In this document: one piece after another, positions 2,163 through 28,733 of the stretch
Position numbering within the stretch: position 1 is the first letter of the stretch
How the letters are laid out: each line of letters opens with the position of its first letter
DNA from: Tannerellaceae bacterium
GTDB taxonomy: Bacteria; Bacteroidota; Bacteroidia; Bacteroidales; Tannerellaceae
NCBI GenBank assembly: GCA_031259845.1
Contig: JAIRKZ010000015.1
Coordinates: 1-34,990, forward strand
Direction of reading: 5' to 3'
DNA: 34,990 nucleotides
Notes under the pieces: model-generated
Database searches by the model: none
What the model was told of the DNA's origin: nothing
The model's input: the letters and a program-made list of their open reading frames with translations, nothing else
Program-made: the position numbers and the translations under genes

Positions 2163-3266
2163 TTAACGGAGTATGCCGTTACGCTGGATGGTAACGATAT
2201 GGTTTAATACCCGTTTGTCGAACGGCAGGCCGTTTTCCGCTCTGAACTCTACGGCGATGGGCAGGTAATACAGCGCCCCTTTCCACTCATCCGGCAGGGC
2301 CGGGTTTTCCAGCAGCCGTACAGCGTCTTTTTCTGTTGTCAGGATATATTTATCGGCCGGCTGCATCCGCCCGAAGGCTTCATTTATCTTCCGTATATCC
2401 TGCCGGGTGTACTGGTGATGGTCGGGGTAAAGCATTGGCGTTACCCTGGCGGCCTGCCTCTTCACTTCTTCCACGAAACGCTCCGGCGCGGCTATCCCCG
2501 CCAGCAGCAACACCTCGTCGGCCTCCTGTATGGGGCGCTTGCCTGGCGCCTGGCCGCCGTCTGCAAACAGCGGTTCCGGATGGCCATACGTAATATAGGT
2601 AAAATAAATTTCCTGGTGCGCCAGCAGCCCCATCTCGTCTGCTGCGATGCGATAGTCTATCGGCTTGAGTCCTTCCGGGCACTTGGATACGATAACCACG
2701 TCTGCCCGGCGTATCCCTGCCGCCGGCTCGCGCAGGCGCCCTGCCGGCAACAGTTTGTCGCGGTACAGAAAACGGTTATAATCCGTCAGCACGATAGACA
2801 GCGAGGGCGTAACGTAGCGGTGCTGGAAAGCGTCGTCGAGCAAAATCACGTCTGGCCTTTCCCCTTCGGGCAGGGCCGTCAGGGTGCGTATCCCCCGCCG
2901 GCGGTCGCTGTCTACGGCCACCAGTATGCCGGGGAATTTGCGTTTTATCTGAAACGGCTCGTCGCCTATATCCTGGCAACTGCTTTCGCGCCCGGCCAGT
3001 ACATATCCCTTTGTTTCCCGTTTATATCCGCGGCTTAGCACGGCCACTTTATACCTGTCTTTGAGCAGCCGTATGAGGTATTCCACGTGGGGCGTCTTGC
3101 CCGTTCCCCCCGCCGCCAGGTTTCCTACGCTAATCACGGGTACGGCAAATTCTTCCGAAGGCAGCGCCCCCCAGTTGAACAGTTGATTTCGCAGCCTTAC
3201 CCCCGCCCCGTAAACCAGCGCAAGGGGAGTGAGCCAATAGTTTAGTTTAAAAGGATTACCCGTCAT
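2163..3266 (-). CDS. lpxK: Tetraacyldisaccharide 4'-kinase LpxK
   Basis: LpxK transfers phosphate from ATP to the 4' position of the lipid A disaccharide precursor at the inner membrane. A P-loop, GNLAAGGTGKT, lies near residues 48-58, and the N-terminus (FKLNYWLTPLALVYGAGVRLRN) has the hydrophobic membrane-associating start typical of the family. LDDAFQHR and TTEKDAVRL motifs follow. I chose the ATG at 3266 because MTGNPFKLNYW resembles known LpxK starts and leaves 4 bp after the sppA stop. An in-frame ATG at 3290 would add eight residues and overlap sppA. About 367 residues, a normal length. Confidence 0.94.
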   Translation of the reverse strand: MTGNPFKLNYWLTPLALVYGAGVRLRNQLFNWGALPSEEFAVPVISVGNLAAGGTGKTPHVEYLIRLLKDRYKVAVLSRGYKRETKGYVLAGRESSCQDIGDEPFQIKRKFPGILVAVDSDRRRGIRTLTALPEGERPDVILLDDAFQHRYVTPSLSIVLTDYNRFLYRDKLLPAGRLREPAAGIRRADVVIVSKCPEGLKPIDYRIAADEMGLLAHQEIYFTYITYGHPEPLFADGGQAPGKRPIQEADEVLLLAGIAAPERFVEEVKRQAARVTPMLYPDHHQYTRQDIRKINEAFGRMQPADKYILTTEKDAVRLLENPALPDEWKGALYYLPIAVEFRAENGLPFDKRVLNHIVTIQRNGILR

Positions 3267-3270
3267 CGTA

Positions 3271-5037
3271 TTATAAAGGTTCAATATCATAGGGCAGCCT
3301 TGCCAGGATACCCCTGTTCGAGCGGATGTCGTTCAGCTTTTCCAACTGTTTGAACTCTTCGCCCAGCATATTCTTTACGATAGACAGTTTGAGGTCTTCT
3401 AACTGTTTTTCCAGTAAAGAGGTAAAGAAGTCTTTCGATCCCGATACGTGCGTCAGCTCATAGTCTGCCAGCCCGCTTAACCCGGCGGCCGCTTCTATTG
3501 CAGCGTCCAGGCCTCCCAGTTCGTCTACAAGCCCCCGTTCAAACGCCTGTTCGCCCGTCCATACGCGGCCCTGGGCTACCTTGTCTATCTCCTCTTTGGT
3601 CATCCCCCGGCCTTCTGCGCAGCGGCTCAGGAAGGTATCGTAGCCGCGTTCTATGTGCGACTGCATGAGCGCCTTTTCGTCTTCGCGCATCGGGCGCGAC
3701 AGGTCGCCAAAGTCGCCGAAATGATTCGTCTTTACCACGTCGGTCGTTACATCCAGCATCTTGTATAAGCCGGTAGCATTGGGAAACATGCCGAGTATGC
3801 CAATAGAGCCGGTCAACGTATTCCTTTCAGCAACAATCCGGCTGGCTGCGCACGAGATGTAATATCCTCCCGAAGCCGCCACGTTCCCCATCGACACAAC
3901 GAGGGGCTTCGCCTCTTTCATCCGTACTACCTCGTGCCATATCTGGTCTGAAACAAAAGCGCTTCCTCCCGGCGAGTTTACGCGCAGCACCACGGCTTTC
4001 ACCTCGTCGTCTTTATACAGCTTGTTAAGCTCCGCCACCATCTTTTCGGTAATGGCAGAGGCTGTGCTGTAAGGCGTAACAGACGCTTCGGACGTAATCG
4101 TTCCTTCGGCATACAAGACGGCTATCTTGCCCGGTTTCTTTTTACTCTTTTCCTTTACATTGCGCAGCTTGTCTGCGCCGGCCGTTATCAGTTTGTCGCC
4201 TGTTTGCCCGGCCAATTCCTTTACATACGCTTCCACGTCTATCTTGTAGCCAAGCTCGTCTATCAAACCGTATGTAACGGCATTTTCGGCGGCTGATATG
4301 CTCAGCCCCTCGTCGGCAAAGCGGTTTACGTCGGCTACAGACAGCTTCCGCGCCTCCGCGATACCTTCGCAGATATTTCCCCAAATACCGTTCATATAAG
4401 AGGTAAGCTGTTCCCTGTTTTCATCGCTTAACTTATCCAGCATAAACGGCTCCACATAGCTCTTGTAGCTTCCCACCTTAAAGATTTGCATCTCGATACC
4501 CGCCTTTTTCAGGATACCTTTATAGAAGGTGGTTTGCGAAGCAAAGCCAAGCAACTCCACGATTCCCTGCGGATTGAGGTATACCTTGTCGGCCACGGAG
4601 CTAAGGTAATAGCCGCCCTGCATATAGTTATCGGCATAAGCAACGATAAACTTGCCGCTTTCCTTAAAGTCGAGGAGCGCCCGCCGGACGGCGTCTATAT
4701 TGGCCGTTCCGGAACTGAAGAGACCCGATTCGATATAGATACCCTTTACATTGGGTTCGTTCTTTGCCGCTTTGATTGCTTTCAGGATGTCTTTCAAAGA
4801 GAGCTGAGTGGCCGTTTCGCCCATTAACATGGCGAAGGGGTTGTCTTCTGCATTGTCTGCCAAAGAGCCGTTCAGCGATAATTTGAACACCGTATTGGCC
4901 TTGGGGGTATAGGGCGGATTGCTTCCGAGGCTTGCCGCCACGCCGATAAACACAAATGTACCTGCCAGCATAAGTATGCCAATCGCCACAATCATCCCCA
5001 GCGTTGAGGCGAACATCATTTTAAAAAATTGTTTCAT
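3271..5037 (-). CDS. sppA: Signal peptide peptidase SppA, long (67 kDa) type
   Basis: A membrane serine protease with a Ser/Lys dyad that degrades cleaved signal peptides. The 588-residue protein has one N-terminal membrane segment (about 10-36) and two tandem ClpP-like S49 domains. The general-base Lys is K192 in KVGSYKSYVEPF and the nucleophile is S389 in NVAASGGYYISC, matching the positions known in the E. coli enzyme (K209, S409). SPGGSAFVSDQ (355-365) and LTGSIGILG are also present. It is the first gene of sppA-lpxK-thiL. The start at 5037 gives the expected membrane anchor, and a good -7 box lies about 70 bp upstream. Confidence 0.96.
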   Translation of the reverse strand: MKQFFKMMFASTLGMIVAIGILMLAGTFVFIGVAASLGSNPPYTPKANTVFKLSLNGSLADNAEDNPFAMLMGETATQLSLKDILKAIKAAKNEPNVKGIYIESGLFSSGTANIDAVRRALLDFKESGKFIVAYADNYMQGGYYLSSVADKVYLNPQGIVELLGFASQTTFYKGILKKAGIEMQIFKVGSYKSYVEPFMLDKLSDENREQLTSYMNGIWGNICEGIAEARKLSVADVNRFADEGLSISAAENAVTYGLIDELGYKIDVEAYVKELAGQTGDKLITAGADKLRNVKEKSKKKPGKIAVLYAEGTITSEASVTPYSTASAITEKMVAELNKLYKDDEVKAVVLRVNSPGGSAFVSDQIWHEVVRMKEAKPLVVSMGNVAASGGYYISCAASRIVAERNTLTGSIGILGMFPNATGLYKMLDVTTDVVKTNHFGDFGDLSRPMREDEKALMQSHIERGYDTFLSRCAEGRGMTKEEIDKVAQGRVWTGEQAFERGLVDELGGLDAAIEAAAGLSGLADYELTHVSGSKDFFTSLLEKQLEDLKLSIVKNMLGEEFKQLEKLNDIRSNRGILARLPYDIEPL

Positions 5038-10086: not shown

Positions 10087-11590
10087 CACTCTCTGCTCCT
10101 ATCGGAACAGCAACAATAACAGCCTCGTCTATGGAGTATGAATTTCCCAAAGAGAAACTATCTTTAAAAAAAGGTGAAAATAAAATCATTGATTTTTATC
10201 CACTTAGAAATAAAACGGCTCTCAGTGAAATAACAGTAACTGGAAAAACAAAAGCACAGCAAGTACGCGAGACGCCTTATAATGTAACTGCAATTGACGC
10301 AACCAAACTTCATAATGCGACAACAGACATCAATCAGGTATTGAACAGGACTACAGGCATCAAAATCAGGGAGACCGGAGGAATGGGCTCGGGATTCTCG
10401 TTCTCGCTGAACGGATTCTCCGGCAATCAAGTCCGATTTTTTATTGATGGGATACCGATGGACAATCTGGGTTCATCCTTTCAGATAAATAATATTCCGG
10501 TAAACCTGGCTGAACGGATAGATGTTTATAAAGGCGTTGTGCCTATCAGCTTAGGAGCTGATATTTTAGGAGGAGCCATTAATATAATTACCAACCCGGG
10601 AAAAAAGAATTTTATCGATGCCTCCTATTCTTACGGACCATTTAACACTCATCGCACCTCTGTAAACACAAGTTACACAACCAGGCAAGGCGTTAATTTT
10701 CAACTTAGCGTATCGCAGAATTATTCCGACAATAACTATAAAGTAAATATCGAAGTGGCTGATCTTGTTACAGGCGAATACATCCCAATGAGGGTTAAAC
10801 GCTTTCACGACACTTATCACAACGAAACCGTTATAGCAAAGGCAGGTCTTGTCAATAAGCCTTTTGCAGATATTCTGCAGGCCGGCATCACATTGGGACA
10901 AAATATAAAAGACATACAAACCGGTAATAGAATGTACGAAGTGTACGGTATGCGAATGACGAAAGGAAATATCATAATGCCTTCTGTTCGTTATTCAAAA
11001 AACAACCTGTTTGTAGAAGGACTTGATTTCAATTTAAATGGAAACTGCAATCTGGGTGAAGAACAATCAATAGACACCGTTCCTCGCCAGTATAATTGGC
11101 TGGGAGACTATGTTGTCAACAACTCTTCTGATAGCAGGGGGGTGAAGCAGGTATTGCCACATTATATAATTATAAAAATAACAACGGCCTGTTAATCGCA
11201 AATTTTGATTTTCACAGACTGAAAAATCATACCATTAACTTCAACTACACCTACAATACCTTCAATCGAAAAGGAAAAGACCAACTAAATCCGGATTTGA
11301 TCAGCAATAATATGCCAAAGAAGAATATTAAAAATATTCTGGGACTTAGATATCAGTTCAACCCAAACGAGAGATGGCAAGCAATCGTTTTTATTAAAGA
11401 AATTCTGCAACATAGTACTGCCCCGATCATTCAGGATGACATTTATATTTTAAGGAAAAATGATATTAATAAAACCGGATATGGCTTTGCCGGAACATAT
11501 TGGCCTTTACTGGGATTGCAGATAAAACTATCGTACGAAAAATGTATGCGTCTGCCTGAAAACGAGGAGCTATTTGGTGATGAAGTAATC
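10087..11590 (+). pseudogene. TonB-dependent outer membrane receptor, truncated at both ends and frameshifted
   Basis: The first frame (ATG at 10131, open back to about 10080) begins inside a carboxypeptidase-regulatory-like domain (SAPIGTATITASS), followed by ALSEITVTGK and the plug: NQVLNRTTGIKIRETGGMGS, VRFFIDGIPMD and VYKGVVPISLGADILGGAIN. No signal peptide precedes it. A frameshift near 11160 ends this frame at 11195; the other frame continues the barrel (YNYKNNNGLLIANFDFHRL to LPENEELFGDE). The barrel then stops near 11590, where the sequence changes into the DUF4374 lipoprotein. The last part of the barrel is missing. In its intact form it would import iron chelates or similar ligands; the neighbours fit iron. 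Confidence 0.85.
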
Positions 11591-17609: not shown

Positions 17610-18785
17610 TTAGTCATAGTCTCTATACAAGAGGTATTTTTTGCGGAGGGCTTTGTATTCGGTTAGTTCTTGTTGCCACGTAGCGCGAATGTCGTCTTCG
17701 CTCATACCGAGGATAATTTGGCGGCGCAGTTCTTTTGTGCCGGCTAATAAGTCGAACCATTCGGGGCGGGTGAAGAAGAAAGCCTGGTCGTTTCCTGCTT
17801 TTTTGTAGAAATCGAAAAGGAATTGAAGGGAGAGCCCTCCTTCAAAAGGATATTCGCGCAGGTCTGTGCCGTAACAGGTTTTGTCTTTTTGTAACGGGTT
17901 CGTATCGAATCCGGGTAATGATTTGGGCGTGAAGGTAAACGAACCGTATTTTTCGTCAGGATAGCCTATCGCCTGGAAAGGGAAACAGGTTCCCCTGCCA
18001 ATGCTGAATGGCGTTGCTTCAAAGAAACATAAAGAGGGGTACAGGCGGACAGACTGGTCGTTGGGAAGGTTTGGCGATGGTTTTACGGGAAGCCGGTAAG
18101 GGTCGCCGTGCGCCCAGTTCAGCAGGGTTACAACCTGAAGCTTGCATTTGATTCCGTTGGCAAGCCAACCTTCCTGATTGATCATCTGCGCCAGCTCGCC
18201 GACCGTTAATCCGTGAAGTATGGGGATAGGGTCTACTCCTACAAACGATTCAAAGCCCTTTTTACGGATAGGGCCGTCTACAAAGTCGTTGGGATTGGGG
18301 CGGTCTAATACAATAAAACCTACATTATTTTCGGCGCATGCTTCCATTACGTAGTGCATCGTACTGATATAGGTATAATAACGGGCGCCGACGTCTTGAA
18401 TATCGAATACAACCGCGTCCAGCCCTTTTAACTGGGAAGGCGTGGGTTTATGGTTTTTCCCGTAGATAGATATAATCGGGATGCCGGTCTTCTTATCCCG
18501 GCTGTCTTTTATTTTTTCGCCGGCGTCGGCCGTACCCCGGAAACCATGTTCGGGCGCCAACACTTTTTTTACCGGAATTCCCCGGCTTACGAATGTATCC
18601 AGCAGATGTGTGTTTGTTTTCTCCAATACAGACGTCTGGTTTATCACCAAACCTACCCGTTTATCTTTTAATAATCCGGCAATTACATCCATTCGTTCGG
18701 CGCCCGTAACGAATGAACCGGCAGACTGGCTCCAGCCTGTGCGGCACAAAAACAAACAGCTTGCTAATAAAATAATCCTCGTCAT
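17610..18785 (-). CDS. namZ: Exo-beta-N-acetylmuramidase NamZ (DUF1343)
   Basis: NamZ enzymes remove terminal MurNAc from the non-reducing end of peptidoglycan fragments, feeding cell-wall recycling; this role is known for the YbbC and Tannerella members. The 391-residue protein has a signal peptide (about 1-20, ending GWSQS), so it acts in the periplasm. Family blocks present: GLVINQTSVL, KVLAPEHGFRG (with the conserved Glu, residues 75-84), FDIQDVGARYYTYI, LDRPNP and PSPNLP. Length is typical. It is divergent from the HD-LptD gene with facing promoters. Confidence 0.9.
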   Translation of the reverse strand: MTRIILLASCLFLCRTGWSQSAGSFVTGAERMDVIAGLLKDKRVGLVINQTSVLEKTNTHLLDTFVSRGIPVKKVLAPEHGFRGTADAGEKIKDSRDKKTGIPIISIYGKNHKPTPSQLKGLDAVVFDIQDVGARYYTYISTMHYVMEACAENNVGFIVLDRPNPNDFVDGPIRKKGFESFVGVDPIPILHGLTVGELAQMINQEGWLANGIKCKLQVVTLLNWAHGDPYRLPVKPSPNLPNDQSVRLYPSLCFFEATPFSIGRGTCFPFQAIGYPDEKYGSFTFTPKSLPGFDTNPLQKDKTCYGTDLREYPFEGGLSLQFLFDFYKKAGNDQAFFFTRPEWFDLLAGTKELRRQIILGMSEDDIRATWQQELTEYKALRKKYLLYRDYD

Positions 18786-18815: not shown

Positions 18816-18852
18816 CAAATGTAGCAAAAATCCGGATCATTCATTACATTTG
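18816..18852. promoter_or_regulatory. Divergent -7 boxes for namZ and the HD-lptD gene
   Basis: CAAATGTA at 18816-18823 is TACATTTG on the minus strand (toward namZ). TACATTTG at 18845-18852 faces the HD-lptD gene. Both match TAnnTTTG exactly and mirror each other across 21 bp. The second places transcription near 18859, which favours the ATG at 18874. Matching -33 boxes are poor. Confidence 0.55.
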
Positions 18853-18873: not shown

Positions 18874-21800
18874 ATGGATAAAAGGATGAATCCGGTAGAT
18901 ATTATATCCCGCTATTATGACGTTGAGACTGATGCTTACCGGATATTAGTGGCTCATAGCCGTAATGTTACGGATAAAGCGTTGGCAATAGCTCGTGAAC
19001 ATCCGGAGATGAACCTCGATACGGTTTTCATTAGCGAAGCGGCCATGCTGCATGATATCGGAATGTTTATGTGCGATGCTCCGGAAATAGACTGCCATGG
19101 GGAGGCTGATTATATATGCCATGGATATCTGGGAGCCGAGTTGATACGTAAAGAAGGATATCCCCGCCATGCGCTTGTTTGTGAACGCCATACAGGGGCG
19201 GGAATATCCGAAAAAGAAATAATAGAGCGAAGCCTTCCGTTGCCTCGTCGCGATATGCTTCCGGTATCAATGGAAGAACAATTAATTTGCTTTGCCGATA
19301 AATTTTACAGTAAAACAACATTGGATAAGGAAAAGTCAATAAGCAAAATAAAAAAAGGCCTCTCCAAGTATGGAGAGGCGGGCCTTTTACGCTTTGAGCA
19401 TTGGTGTAAACTCTTTTATATAACAACCTTAATCCTTCTGGCCGGAAGCCTGCCTTTGCAGGCGCAGGAGATGGCGCCGCCGGTAGCGGCAGAAGACAGC
19501 GTTATGTTTTCCGATACGGTTCCCCGGAAGAGTACATTGGAGGCTCAGGTAACGTATACGGCGTCGGACTCTATCATCATGACGGCCGGTAACTGGGCTT
19601 ACCTTTATGGAAAAGGAGACGTGAAATACCAACAAATCGAACTGGAAGCCGAAATAATAGAGATGAATATGGATAGCAGCTTAATCTTTGCTAAATTTGG
19701 GCTCGATTCAATAGGCGAAGAATTCGGATACCCCCTGTTTAAAGACGGCGGGCAAGAATATGAATCCAAAACCATGCGATACAATTTCAAGTCGAAGAAG
19801 GGCTATATAACCGACGTTCTTACACAGCAGGGAGAGGGGTATGTAACCGCCACACGCACCAAAAAGCTGGAGGGCGATATCCTCAATATGGCCGACGGAC
19901 GCTATACTACTTGCGACGAACACGATCATCCCCATTTCTATATCCAGATGACCCGGGCGAAGGTTCGCCCGAAAAAGGATATTGTTACCGGCCCTGTTTA
20001 TCTGGTAATAGCAGATGTTCCTTTGTATCCTTTAGGGCTTCCTTTCGCTTTTTTCCCTTTTTCCGATAAATACTCGTCCGGCGTCCTGTTCCCTTCTTTT
20101 GGCGACGAATCTACCAGGGGGTTCTACCTGCGCGACGCAGGATATTATTTTGCCATGAATGATTATGCAGACTTGGCGTTGACAGGAGAATTATATACAA
20201 AAGGTTCGTGGGGAGTAACCGCCCGTTCCAATTATAGAAAGAGATATAAATACTCGGGAAGTTTTAATGCCAATTACTTAGTAACGCGATTGGGCGATAA
20301 AGGCTTGTCCGACTATAGCTTATCAAAAGACTTTAAATTGAACTGGTCGCATAGCCAGGACGCTAAATCAAACCCTTTCCGTACAATCTCCGCCAGCGTA
20401 AACTTTGCCACCAGCAGTTATGACAGGAATAATATCCAGGGAATGTACGGGGCTTCGTCTACCCAGAATACAAAAGGATCGAGCATCAATATCACCCAGC
20501 GCTTCCCCAACAGCCCGTTTAGCCTTTCGGGCACTGCCAACTTGAACCAGGTGCAGCGGGATACGACTCTGTCTGTTACCTTTCCCGATATTACGGCGAC
20601 AATGAGCCGCATCTTTCCCTTTAAACGTAAGAATGCGGTAGGCTCTGAGCGCTGGTATGAGAAAATCTCCATGAGTTATTCAGGCTATCTGAGGAATAGT
20701 ATTACAACAAAAGAATACAAATTCTTTCAATCGAATATTATCAGGGACTGGAAGAATGGTATGCAACACCAGATACCGGTAGGCGCTACATTCAGCATAT
20801 TCAATTACGTCAACATTTCGCCTAACGTTAGTTATACGGAAAGATGGTATACCAATAAAATAGAGAAAGAGTATGACGTGCAGAAAGACCAATTGGTAGT
20901 AAGCGATACTATCTACGGTTTTAACCGGGTTTATAACTATAATGCGTCTGTTTCCGCTTCAACCACGCTCTATGGAATGTTCCAGCCGCTGGGCTTTCTC
21001 CGGAAATGGGTAAAAACGATCCGGCACAGGATGGACCCGTCGGTAAGCGTTGGTTTTACTCCCGACTTCGGCAACCGCAGATATGGTTTTTATAAAGAAT
21101 ACAGGTATTTAGACGCGCGGGGAGAAGAAAAAACGGTATTTTATTCGCCTTTCGAAAACGGCATGTTTGGCGTGCCGGGACAAGGCAAACAAGGCAATAT
21201 CAGCTTTAGCCTCGATAATAATATTGAAGCAAAAGTAGCCTCGGACAAAGATTCTACGGGAGTAAAGAAAATGAGCCTTATTGACAAGCTCGCGTTTTCC
21301 ATGAGCCACAACCTGATTGCAGACTCTTTCAAATGGAGTGATTTGAATGCGAACCTGCGTTTAAAACTAACGAAGAGTTATTCGATAAATCTGAACGGCG
21401 TGTTTGATACATATACCTATGAAACTTCTCAGAATGCAAACGGCGTATGGTCTCACCGGAAAGTAGACAGGTTACGTATCCGGGCGGGAAAAGGCGTCGG
21501 ACGTTTAAAAAGTACCGGCACCAGTTTCTCCTATACGCTTAATAACGAAACGTTTAAAAAAGGTTTGCTGGGGCGGATGTTCGGCCATTCGGACAGCGAT
21601 ACGGAAGAAGAACCATCCACAGACGATACGGAAGGAACGGAAACGCTTGACCAGATAGACCGGTACGGGGAAAACCAAAGTTTGGTGCCCGAAGAAAGTA
21701 CAGGCGGCGGGCGGTTGAGAGGCAGGAAAAAAGATACAAGCGGAGAGGCCGACCCGGATGGTTATTGGGTTAACGCTTTCCCCTGGAGCTTTTCATTTAA

Positions 21801-22134
21801 CTATAGCCTGAACCTCGGCTATGGCGATTTCAATTATATGAAGAAAGAATATAATTATAAATTGACGCATGCCTTAAGTTTCAGCGGGAATATACAGCCA
21901 ACAAAGAACTGGCGCCTTAACTTCAATGCCACGTATGATTTCGATATGAATAAGATATCTTACTTCACATGTAATTTAACGCGAAACTTACATTGTTTCA
22001 ATATGACAGCCAGTTTTATCCCGGTAGGCCCGTATAAATCCTATTCTTTTTCCATAGCCGTAAGTTCTTCTTTATTAAAAGACCTTAAGTACGACCGGAG
22101 AAGTAATTACAGGGAAGGGCAACAATGGTATTAA
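18874..22134 (+). CDS. lptD: HD-domain phosphohydrolase fused in frame to LPS-assembly protein LptD
   Basis: Residues 1-181 form a complete HD-domain hydrolase: H28 (LVAHSRN), HD at 60-61 (AMLHDIGMF), H106 and D142 (CFADKFYSK). Residues 182-198, YITTLILLAGSLPLQAQ, look like a signal peptide with cleavage after QAQ. The rest, to residue 1086, is Bacteroidetes-type LptD: an OstA-like N-terminal part (GNWAYLYGKGDVKYQQIELE), then PLGLPFAFFPFSDKYSSGVL and a long Tyr/Asn-rich beta-barrel with an acidic insert near 900-960. LptD places LPS in the outer leaflet. HD and lptD would be expected as separate genes; here no stop lies between them, and no in-frame start precedes the LptD signal. I start at 18874 because of the promoter box; 18886 is also possible. 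Confidence 0.85.
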   Translation: MDKRMNPVDIISRYYDVETDAYRILVAHSRNVTDKALAIAREHPEMNLDTVFISEAAMLHDIGMFMCDAPEIDCHGEADYICHGYLGAELIRKEGYPRHALVCERHTGAGISEKEIIERSLPLPRRDMLPVSMEEQLICFADKFYSKTTLDKEKSISKIKKGLSKYGEAGLLRFEHWCKLFYITTLILLAGSLPLQAQEMAPPVAAEDSVMFSDTVPRKSTLEAQVTYTASDSIIMTAGNWAYLYGKGDVKYQQIELEAEIIEMNMDSSLIFAKFGLDSIGEEFGYPLFKDGGQEYESKTMRYNFKSKKGYITDVLTQQGEGYVTATRTKKLEGDILNMADGRYTTCDEHDHPHFYIQMTRAKVRPKKDIVTGPVYLVIADVPLYPLGLPFAFFPFSDKYSSGVLFPSFGDESTRGFYLRDAGYYFAMNDYADLALTGELYTKGSWGVTARSNYRKRYKYSGSFNANYLVTRLGDKGLSDYSLSKDFKLNWSHSQDAKSNPFRTISASVNFATSSYDRNNIQGMYGASSTQNTKGSSINITQRFPNSPFSLSGTANLNQVQRDTTLSVTFPDITATMSRIFPFKRKNAVGSERWYEKISMSYSGYLRNSITTKEYKFFQSNIIRDWKNGMQHQIPVGATFSIFNYVNISPNVSYTERWYTNKIEKEYDVQKDQLVVSDTIYGFNRVYNYNASVSASTTLYGMFQPLGFLRKWVKTIRHRMDPSVSVGFTPDFGNRRYGFYKEYRYLDARGEEKTVFYSPFENGMFGVPGQGKQGNISFSLDNNIEAKVASDKDSTGVKKMSLIDKLAFSMSHNLIADSFKWSDLNANLRLKLTKSYSINLNGVFDTYTYETSQNANGVWSHRKVDRLRIRAGKGVGRLKSTGTSFSYTLNNETFKKGLLGRMFGHSDSDTEEEPSTDDTEGTETLDQIDRYGENQSLVPEESTGGGRLRGRKKDTSGEADPDGYWVNAFPWSFSFNYSLNLGYGDFNYMKKEYNYKLTHALSFSGNIQPTKNWRLNFNATYDFDMNKISYFTCNLTRNLHCFNMTASFIPVGPYKSYSFSIAVSSSLLKDLKYDRRSNYREGQQWY

Positions 22135-22135
22135 T

Positions 22136-22798
22136 TTACCAGTCAACAGGCGACTGCCCGCTTGCAACGAGGTAGTCGTTTGCCTTGCTGAAATGCTTAT
22201 TGCCAAAGAACCCCCGGTGGGCGGATAAGGGCGACGGGTGCGGAGACGTTAGAATTAAATTACGGTTCTTATCAATAAAGTCCCCTTTCTTTTGCGCATA
22301 AGACCCCCATAAAATATACACAATATGGCTACGTGATTCGGCCAGCCGGTGAATTACAGCGTCGGTAAATGTTTCCCACCCTTTATTCTGATGCGAACCT
22401 GCCTGATGGGCGCGGACTGTTAATGTGGCGTTGAGCAAAAGAACGCCCTGTCTTGCCCAGCGCGTTAAATCGCCGGTTGCAGGAATGGGCTTTTGCAGGT
22501 CGCTTTTAATTTCCTGAAAAATATTGATCAGAGAAGGAGGAAAGCGAACGCCCTCTTTCACAGAGAAGCAAAGCCCATGCGCTTGCCCCGGTTCATGGTA
22601 AGGGTCTTGCCCCAAAATAACAACCTTCACCTTATCAAAAGGGCAATACTCAAAAGCGCTGAAAATAGCAGGACCCGCAGGATAAACAACGCCCTGCCGG
22701 TACTCCTGCCGTACAAAATCAATTAATAGCCTGAAATAATCTTTCTCAAATTCGGGAGCTAACTGCTCTTTCCAACTTTGTTCGATTTTTACATCCAT
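22136..22798 (-). CDS. ung: Uracil-DNA glycosylase, family 1
   Basis: Ung removes uracil from DNA, starting base-excision repair. The 220-residue protein has the water-activating motif GQDPYH (63-68, catalytic D65), the uracil-pocket LLLNATLTV, and the leucine-loop HPSPLSAHRGF (from 187). Length is typical. Its ATG is 5 bp after the asnA stop on the same strand, so it is probably transcribed from the asnA promoter. Confidence 0.97.
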   Translation of the reverse strand: MDVKIEQSWKEQLAPEFEKDYFRLLIDFVRQEYRQGVVYPAGPAIFSAFEYCPFDKVKVVILGQDPYHEPGQAHGLCFSVKEGVRFPPSLINIFQEIKSDLQKPIPATGDLTRWARQGVLLLNATLTVRAHQAGSHQNKGWETFTDAVIHRLAESRSHIVYILWGSYAQKKGDFIDKNRNLILTSPHPSPLSAHRGFFGNKHFSKANDYLVASGQSPVDW

Positions 22799-27407: not shown

Positions 27408-28733
27408 TTACTTAAAGATAAAGCGGAAGAGGTCGTTGCCGTTGGCGTAGATTAATAAGCCGAACAGAAGCAGCATGCCTGTTATCTGTGCGTATTCGAG
27501 GAATTTATCGCTCGGCTTCCTGCGGGTGATTACTTCGTAGAAGAGGAACATTACATGCCCCCCGTCGAGCGCCGGGATGGGGAGGATGTTCATAAAGGCG
27601 AGGATGATGGAAAGGAAAGCGGTGGTTATCCAGAAGGAACGCCAGTCCCACAGGGGGGGGAATAAACTGCCTATCGCCCCGAAACCGCCCAGGCTGGAAG
27701 CGCCTTCTTTGGTGAATACGTATTTCATGTCGCCCACGTATCCTTTCAGGGTGTTAACGCCTAAAAGGATACCGGCCGGGAAGGAGGCCAGAAATCCATA
27801 GCTGGTAGTTACGGCGGCGTAAATCTGGTCGGGCGAAAGGGTGTAGACGCCCAGTTTGCCCAGTGAATCAAGCCTTACCTGCGCCGTTTGCTCAATGCCG
27901 TCGCGGTAAAAGCCAATCGTTACCTCCCGGTTCTTTTTTTCGCTGAGTAGCGCGCTTACATCGTAAAAGGTGGGAGCAGGCTTGCTGTCTACAGACACAA
28001 TGCTGTCTTTGGGCTGCAAGCCGGCCAGTGCGGCGGGAACCTCGTTGCCGGCAAGCCTGTCTATAATCATGGGGAAACGTATGGAGGCAAAGCCCTGCTT
28101 GTCTCGTAATACGCGCTGCATCATGTCTCCCGGTATGGGGATAACGGTTTCCGTTCCGTTGCGAAGCACCGTTACGCTCGCAGCGCCGGCCACTGCCCGC
28201 AGCGCGTCTGCCCCGAAACGTTCCAGCTTCACCCCGCCGGCGCTTAAAAGGATGTCGCCGTCTTCAAAGCCTGCCTCGTGGAAGGTATCGCTGTAGTCCA
28301 TCCCCATCTTCATGTTTTCAAGCGGAAGATACCTGTCTCCCCAGGCAAAGAGCACCATTGAGTAGATAAACAGGGCCAGCAGGAAGTTGAACAGCACGCC
28401 GCCCACCATAATGAGCAAACGTTTCCCCGCCGGCCTGGAACGGAACTCCCAGGGCTGCGGGGGTTGCGCCAGCTGTTCCCTGTCCATGCTTTCGTCTATC
28501 ATGCCCGATATTTTACAGTAGCCGCCCAGGGGAAGCCACCCGATGCCATACTCGGTTTCGCCGCTTTTGGACTTGTAGCGGAATAAAGCAAACCAGGGGT
28601 CGAAGAATAAATAAAACTTCTCTACCCTCACCTTAAAGATACGGGCAAAAAGGAAATGCCCCGCCTCGTGAACAACTACTAATACGGATAAGCTCAGTAT
28701 GAGCTGCAATGCTCTTATCAAAAATGTTTCCAT
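27408..28733 (-). CDS. rseP: RIP metalloprotease RseP (site-2 protease)
   Basis: An inner-membrane zinc protease that cuts membrane-embedded substrates, such as anti-sigma factors or signal peptide remnants. The zinc site HEAGH is at 22-26 in the first membrane helix; the second zinc ligand motif, NILPIPALDGGH, is at 382-393. Periplasmic PDZ-like parts lie between (FEDGDILLSAGG; LQPKDSIVSVDSKP). 441 residues, normal for Bacteroidetes. It is 28 bp downstream of dxr, the last gene of that run. Confidence 0.96.
   Translation of the reverse strand: METFLIRALQLILSLSVLVVVHEAGHFLFARIFKVRVEKFYLFFDPWFALFRYKSKSGETEYGIGWLPLGGYCKISGMIDESMDREQLAQPPQPWEFRSRPAGKRLLIMVGGVLFNFLLALFIYSMVLFAWGDRYLPLENMKMGMDYSDTFHEAGFEDGDILLSAGGVKLERFGADALRAVAGAASVTVLRNGTETVIPIPGDMMQRVLRDKQGFASIRFPMIIDRLAGNEVPAALAGLQPKDSIVSVDSKPAPTFYDVSALLSEKKNREVTIGFYRDGIEQTAQVRLDSLGKLGVYTLSPDQIYAAVTTSYGFLASFPAGILLGVNTLKGYVGDMKYVFTKEGASSLGGFGAIGSLFPPLWDWRSFWITTAFLSIILAFMNILPIPALDGGHVMFLFYEVITRRKPSDKFLEYAQITGMLLLFGLLIYANGNDLFRFIFK

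Follow-up and report, generated by a model that had tools for sequence, protein, structure and literature searches.

LptD is the outer-membrane protein that installs lipopolysaccharide. Membrane proteins of the ToxR/CadC type carry a cytoplasmic DNA-binding domain and a single N-in segment, with no signal peptidase cut for export. In RsiP and RsiV, the cytoplasmic part is N-terminal. According to PMC8844934, cleavage of RsiV and of RsiP, a single-pass anti-sigma factor, begins with a signal peptidase cut, which precedes that by the site-2 protease. The signal peptidase I of Bacteroidota follows a Q-rule, with Q at +1 behind an A at -1 (PMC5837995). A search of the literature on Bacteroides and Bacteroidetes, judged by title and over a few wordings, found nothing on a tie between lptD and HD genes or on an HD-LptD fusion.

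The locus described here lies in the window, a stretch of 34,990 nucleotides from a Tannerellaceae genome (G000), and encodes an HD hydrolase, a signal-peptide-like segment, and LptD in a single frame (Table 1).

An HD hydrolase and LptD in one reading frame

The frame stays open from 5' of position 18874 to its TAA, and a Pfam profile search places matches to both PF01966 and PF19838 within it. The first-pass annotation had read HD as running without a stop into a signal-like segment and a full LptD, and so it does. The chain starts at 18874 or at ATG 18886, the latter being the start used by aligned relatives; the residues spanning the HD-LptD joint are RFEHWCKLFYITT.

Table 1. Features of the fused gene and its surroundings (window coordinates)
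Feature	Position	Strand	Basis or remark
NamZ exo-beta-N-acetylmuramidase, divergent neighbour	17610..18785	-	PF07075, PF20732
TAnnTTTG-like box, TACATTTG	18845..18852	+	41 nt before HD start 18886; also in L003, L004
HD-LptD fused ORF	18874..22134	+	1086 aa, TAA at 22132-22134
HD/HDIG hydrolase part, residues 1-181, ending ...HWCKLF	18874..19416	+	PF01966, TIGR00277 HDIG, ligands, AlphaFold
Out-of-frame reading MERRAFYALSIGVNSFI, then stop	19370..19423	+	Judged a by-product of HD codons
Signal-peptide-like segment YITTLILLAGSLPLQA, residues 182-197	19417..19464	+	Aligns with h-/c-region of unfused lptD signal
Predicted signal peptidase I site A197/Q198 (LQA/QE)	19462..19467	+	Q-rule, AQ conserved
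LptD, predicted mature residues 198-1086	19465..22131	+	PF19838; stop 22132-22134
Uracil-DNA glycosylase, convergent neighbour	22136..22798	-	PF03167

Both halves are recognizable by profile. Within the whole fused protein, PF01966 matches residues 27-144 (E 1.4e-6; 29 bits against a cut-off of 22), and the HD part by itself scores 33.7 bits against the same cut-off. It also matches the HDIG profile TIGR00277. Its score of 56.1 bits with TIGR00295 falls under the curated cut-off of 172.35 and marks a distant relative only. The metal ligands named at first pass (H28; H60-D61; H106; and D142) are present, and do not vary across the HD alignment (42 rows). The LptD half matches all of PF19838 (LptD_2; profile positions 1-464 of 464) across residues 370-847, with E 4.3e-171 and a score of 570 bits, where the cut-off is 22.5.

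The AlphaFold model of the HD part has a mean pLDDT per ten residues of 83-96 over residues 11-180, except for 74 at residues 71-80. Its best structural matches include PgpH, YqeK-like, and HD-GYP proteins; GppA/Ppx and glycyl-tRNA synthetase also match at similar Z (8.4-11.2 overall). Nucleotide phosphohydrolases are thus among the proteins that the predicted structure resembles, with Z values in a middling range, but fold likeness alone assigns no substrate; the first-pass link between nucleotide signalling and lipopolysaccharide export stays a hypothesis. A PDB sequence search with HD found nothing at E 0.01 (single protein) or 1e-5 (alignment).

Elsewhere in the window are a gene for an SppA-like S49 peptidase (3271-5037, minus strand), which overlaps lpxK (2163-3290, minus strand) by 20 nt, and a 354-residue frame (10131-11195, plus strand) that contains the Plug domain of a TonB-dependent receptor and no other. 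The latter is probably a broken or shortened receptor.

Junctions in the genus were compared, as the first-pass annotation had proposed, and the fusion proved to recur. LptD matches are present in 17 of the 18 genus genomes searched, in three arrangements: fused to HD (five genomes); separate from a neighbouring HD gene (nine); and without HD upstream (three). The last are G003, G014, and G015 (loci L013, L016, and L017), which show no HD motif within 1.5 kb upstream of lptD. Two of the fused proteins, in G009 and G017, align with that of the window as single alignments over residues 1-1086 (94% and 93% identity); these two genomes and G000 make up clade A. The other two, in G010 and G006, are 61-68% identical to the window, depending on the part compared. 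Matching one-frame fusions in G009 and G017, with similar ones in G010 and G006, place the arrangement beyond chance. The in-frame HD-LptD fusion is real; faulty assembly and the slip of a single base do not account for it.

A named collection of genomes provided 80 LptD loci: 58 with a separate HD upstream; 19 without HD by pattern (one of them cut by a contig edge); and three fused, which are those of G017, G006, and G010 already counted above. Across the Tannerellaceae, LptD was matched in 115 of 123 genomes searched, a few having LptD in part or none listed. Beyond the genus, none of 20 junctions read is fused. In 18, a stop in the lptD frame separates HD from lptD; L038 (G109) has HD in a different frame from lptD; and no HD is seen in the stretch read for L039 (G083). 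The junctions read are those of the 19 genomes with an LptD open frame longer than 1050 residues, plus G109 (1028 residues); shorter frames have no room for both domains. (Open-frame length misleads where HD and LptD share a frame; for G001, the figures are 934 and 1131 residues.)

At the level of the order, 378 of 393 genomes have an LptD match and, among the matches listed, only the window has an open frame longer than 1002 residues. In a sample of 159 genomes of the order, 50 have a member of the HD family; of these 50, the window alone has a long frame, the others reaching at most 369 residues. Comparison of coordinates in this sample places HD next to lptD in G182, G145, G190, G229, G143, and G256, and about 8 kb away from it in at least one genome, G231. 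The HD-LptD fusion is recurrent but, among the rows inspected, confined to a single genus of the Tannerellaceae; further cases may exist elsewhere.

Anatomy and origins of the joint

The fused and unfused loci differ in the distance from the last F of HD (in KLF, RIF, or ELF) to the Q of the AQ pair: 48 nt in clade A (three loci); 45 nt in L014 and L015, the fused loci of G010 and G006; and 138-148 nt in nine unfused HD-bearing loci, where the spacing spans all three frames. The fused loci lack the HD stop (an unfused HD may end, for example, ...KLFLGE, then stop) and the sequence between the two genes, and on the lptD side both its ATG and the n-region of its signal.

A further difference concerns a promoter-like box. 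All 12 unfused genus loci have TAnnTTTG, which we take to be the Bacteroidota promoter box consensus, 32-39 nt 5' of the lptD ATG (11 by script, with L013 added after correction of its lptD start). Base shuffles of the 11 scripted loci yield the box in 2-8% of cases. In the five fused loci, the 120 nt 5' of the segment contain no such box. A similar one stands 41 nt before the HD start in each of the clade A loci. In L014 and L015, TAnnTTTG was not found in the 150 nt 5' of HD, and an upstream open stretch terminates 14-24 nt before HD; on both counts, the fused gene there probably follows another gene in one transcript. The lptD genes in L013, L016, and L017, the loci with no HD motif upstream, retain their box.

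At least two separate events, and perhaps three, produced the fusion, always at this joint. On the LptD tree, the fused state requires two changes, and the AU test rejects a single origin (the five fused rows held together) with LptD (p 6e-8), with HD (p 0.009), and with the joint HD and LptD data (p 2e-61). Whether G010 and G006 share one event is less clear-cut. The LptD tree pairs them (support 89/89), whereas unfused G005 groups with G006 in the HD tree (96/93; 13 rows, G016 left out) and in the joint tree (78/78). A clade of G010 and G006 is not rejected by the joint data (AU p 0.33), and their fusions may be one event or two. The natural direction of change would be gain, from separate genes, given that the separate arrangement is the commoner one (58 of 80 loci) and that no other family genome among the 20 read is fused. 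(The third codon positions of LptD are GC-rich in L014, 0.77, and L015, 0.80, and likewise in unfused G005, 0.76; the window value is 0.52.)

Within clade A, the protein sequence of the HD half changes slowly. Its dN/dS values for the three pairs are 0.145, 0.120, and 0.110 by NG86 (LptD: 0.105, 0.115, and 0.116), and 0.175, 0.179, and 0.136 by YN00 (LptD: 0.170, 0.182, and 0.187). The HD half is under purifying selection in these pairs and is not decaying. For G010 and G006, the HD value of 0.10 (NG86) comes at a dS of 2.5, where synonymous sites are near saturation, and is little informative.

Why the genes were joined is a question apart from how the product works. It may be that tolerated deletions joined them with no function of the joining itself, the HD enzyme working unchanged, and we regard the chances of this explanation, which is compatible with the mechanism proposed below, as evenly balanced. 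HD and lptD are such close neighbours, in the 58 loci just cited, that a small in-frame deletion is enough, and fusion is seen in five genomes only. That the same joint arose two or three times points the other way. So does selection on both halves across clade A, although this is also expected if HD simply goes on working.

A predicted route of export

The fused LptD retains the h- and c-regions of a Sec-type signal, as judged by alignment with the signal peptides of unfused relatives, but in an internal position behind 181 residues. AQ stands at the cut position in all five fused loci and in all nine unfused HD-bearing genus loci measured. The best 12-residue Kyte-Doolittle mean of the segment is 2.14 in clade A, and 2.75 and 2.59 in the other two fused proteins; unfused lptD signals range from 2.01 to 2.95 (11 scored; L017 unscored), so that the clade A value is within this range but near its low end. 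Ahead of the segment, the fused loci encode two to four basic residues (K/R) and one or two acidic ones (D/E). The AlphaFold model continues the last HD helix (residues 168-191) into the segment, but from residue 185 on pLDDT is below 50. The first-pass idea that signal peptidase could release the HD domain is plausible and would agree with the Q-rule.

These features suggest an account that, taken whole, we consider probable: a fusion born of deletion; a single precursor; an internal signal; export through Sec; and cleavage by signal peptidase I. The deletion, of about 100 nt, would have taken out the HD stop together with the promoter-like box, ATG, and signal n-region of lptD, putting the last helix of a near-complete HD domain directly onto the hydrophobic core of the LptD signal. 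The product would be a precursor of 1086 residues, a single chain. Transcription of the gene would begin from the promoter-like box before HD in clade A, and probably from a more distant point upstream in G010 and G006. HD would fold in the cytoplasm, and residues 182-197 would work as a type II (N-in) signal, with Sec exporting the LptD part. Signal peptidase I would then cleave at A197/Q198, and LptD would proceed to the outer membrane. The cut HD part might remain tethered by a short membrane helix or be freed by intramembrane proteases. We infer one-chain translation, topology, export, cleavage, and the fate of HD from the sequences.

All five fused genomes have genes for Peptidase_S26, the signal peptidase I family, and for RseP-like proteins. 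Against the account, outer-membrane proteins do not usually have a folded domain of 180 residues ahead of a cleavable signal; the low clade A hydrophobicity, the acidic residues before the segment, and the lack of a box before HD in L014 and L015 also weigh against it. (G000 has two genes resembling RseP or site-2 protease, 58% identical, at window 27408-28733 on the minus strand and at C185:4161-5474, L120. Each of the four other fused genomes has one above cut-off; the extra gene in G000 may be a paralogue or contamination.)

The main rival is internal initiation, in which LptD would be made mainly from an in-frame start within HD and have a long n-region, and the full-length chain would serve as HD enzyme or be degraded. 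Candidate starts exist: all five fused loci retain an ATG at -54 (in codons from the segment), to which clade A adds TTG (-32) and ATG (-49), and L015 a GTG (-44). Nevertheless, we think this route unlikely. No fused locus has an in-frame ATG, GTG, or TTG within the 31 codons 5' of the segment, and the nearest candidate varies: TTG at -32 in clade A; ATG at -54 in L014; and GTG at -44 in L015. Most of the unfused HD proteins in the genus likewise have Met at -54 (Leu in L006 and L008), so that this residue is no mark of fusion. Moreover, internal initiation needs no joint in the HD frame, yet all five joints are in frame while unfused loci span three frames, an argument that is weak with two or three events. 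The window has the three upstream codons of clade A, a TTG inside the segment, and an in-frame ATG (19471) 3' of it; as read at first pass, an ordinary, separate lptD start is lacking.

An assembly or sequencing artefact, in which a small deletion error joined two separate genes, is most improbable: the window genome is a draft (3.66 Mb in 204 contigs, 87% complete), but the same joint occurs in three genomes that differ by about 0.2-0.4 at synonymous sites, an equally placed joint occurs in two more, and no fused genome has a further LptD_2 match. We give as little credence to a one-base slip or programmed frameshift from ATG 19370, yielding a separate LptD with the signal MERRAFYAL...: this ATG and its short frame are found in all three clade A genomes, but they overlie HD Tyr-Gly codons and are absent from the two other fused loci, and none of 12 unfused genus relatives starts lptD there. 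ATG 19370 was accordingly rejected as the lptD start. The first-pass suggestion that a single base could restore a separate lptD fails on two points: the lptD ATG of unfused relatives lies in the stretch of about 100 nt missing from the fused genomes; and the fusion is common to several separately assembled genomes.

Meaning and comparison with known systems

Returning to the single exported precursor, a stronger hypothesis adds a function: that fusion was repeatedly selected because it ties one cytoplasmic HD to each LptD through Sec, with HD activity reporting or adjusting export. We find this decidedly doubtful. If true, HD would be held at the inner membrane until the signal peptidase cut, linking a cytoplasmic metabolite to lipopolysaccharide assembly.

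The proposed route would itself make this a natural outer-membrane beta-barrel exported behind a folded cytoplasmic enzyme by way of an internal signal, and raises the question of how far Sec and signal peptidase tolerate very long n-regions. What appears to be the sole LptD copy is at stake: each of the five fused genomes has one LptD_2 match, although all are drafts (58-90% complete), so that a second lptD could be absent from the assemblies. The repeated origin is a natural experiment. The fusion also hints that lptD and the conserved HD gene beside it may be linked.

Ordinary Bacteroidota LptD and the fused one share a full LptD_2 match, the usual C-terminus, and a Q-rule signal end; the fused LptD differs in that it has neither its own start nor its own signal n-region, and in the 181-residue HD that stands in frame before its signal core. 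The nearest relatives of the HD half are the separate small HDIG hydrolases encoded beside lptD in Tannerellaceae and some other Bacteroidales. The HD half shares 62-77% identity with the separate HD proteins in the alignment (37 rows) and keeps the ligands, but it ends two or three residues early and, having no stop, runs on into LptD.

With proteins of the ToxR/CadC type, the predicted precursor shares a cytoplasmic domain ahead of an N-in segment; here, that domain is HD rather than DNA-binding. With RsiV and RsiP (PMC8844934), it would share a cytoplasmic part, one membrane segment, and a signal peptidase cut on the outside. No sequence kinship is claimed. RsiV and RsiP exemplify triggered cleavage of anti-sigma factors in Gram-positives, whereas the cut predicted here would free an outer-membrane protein.
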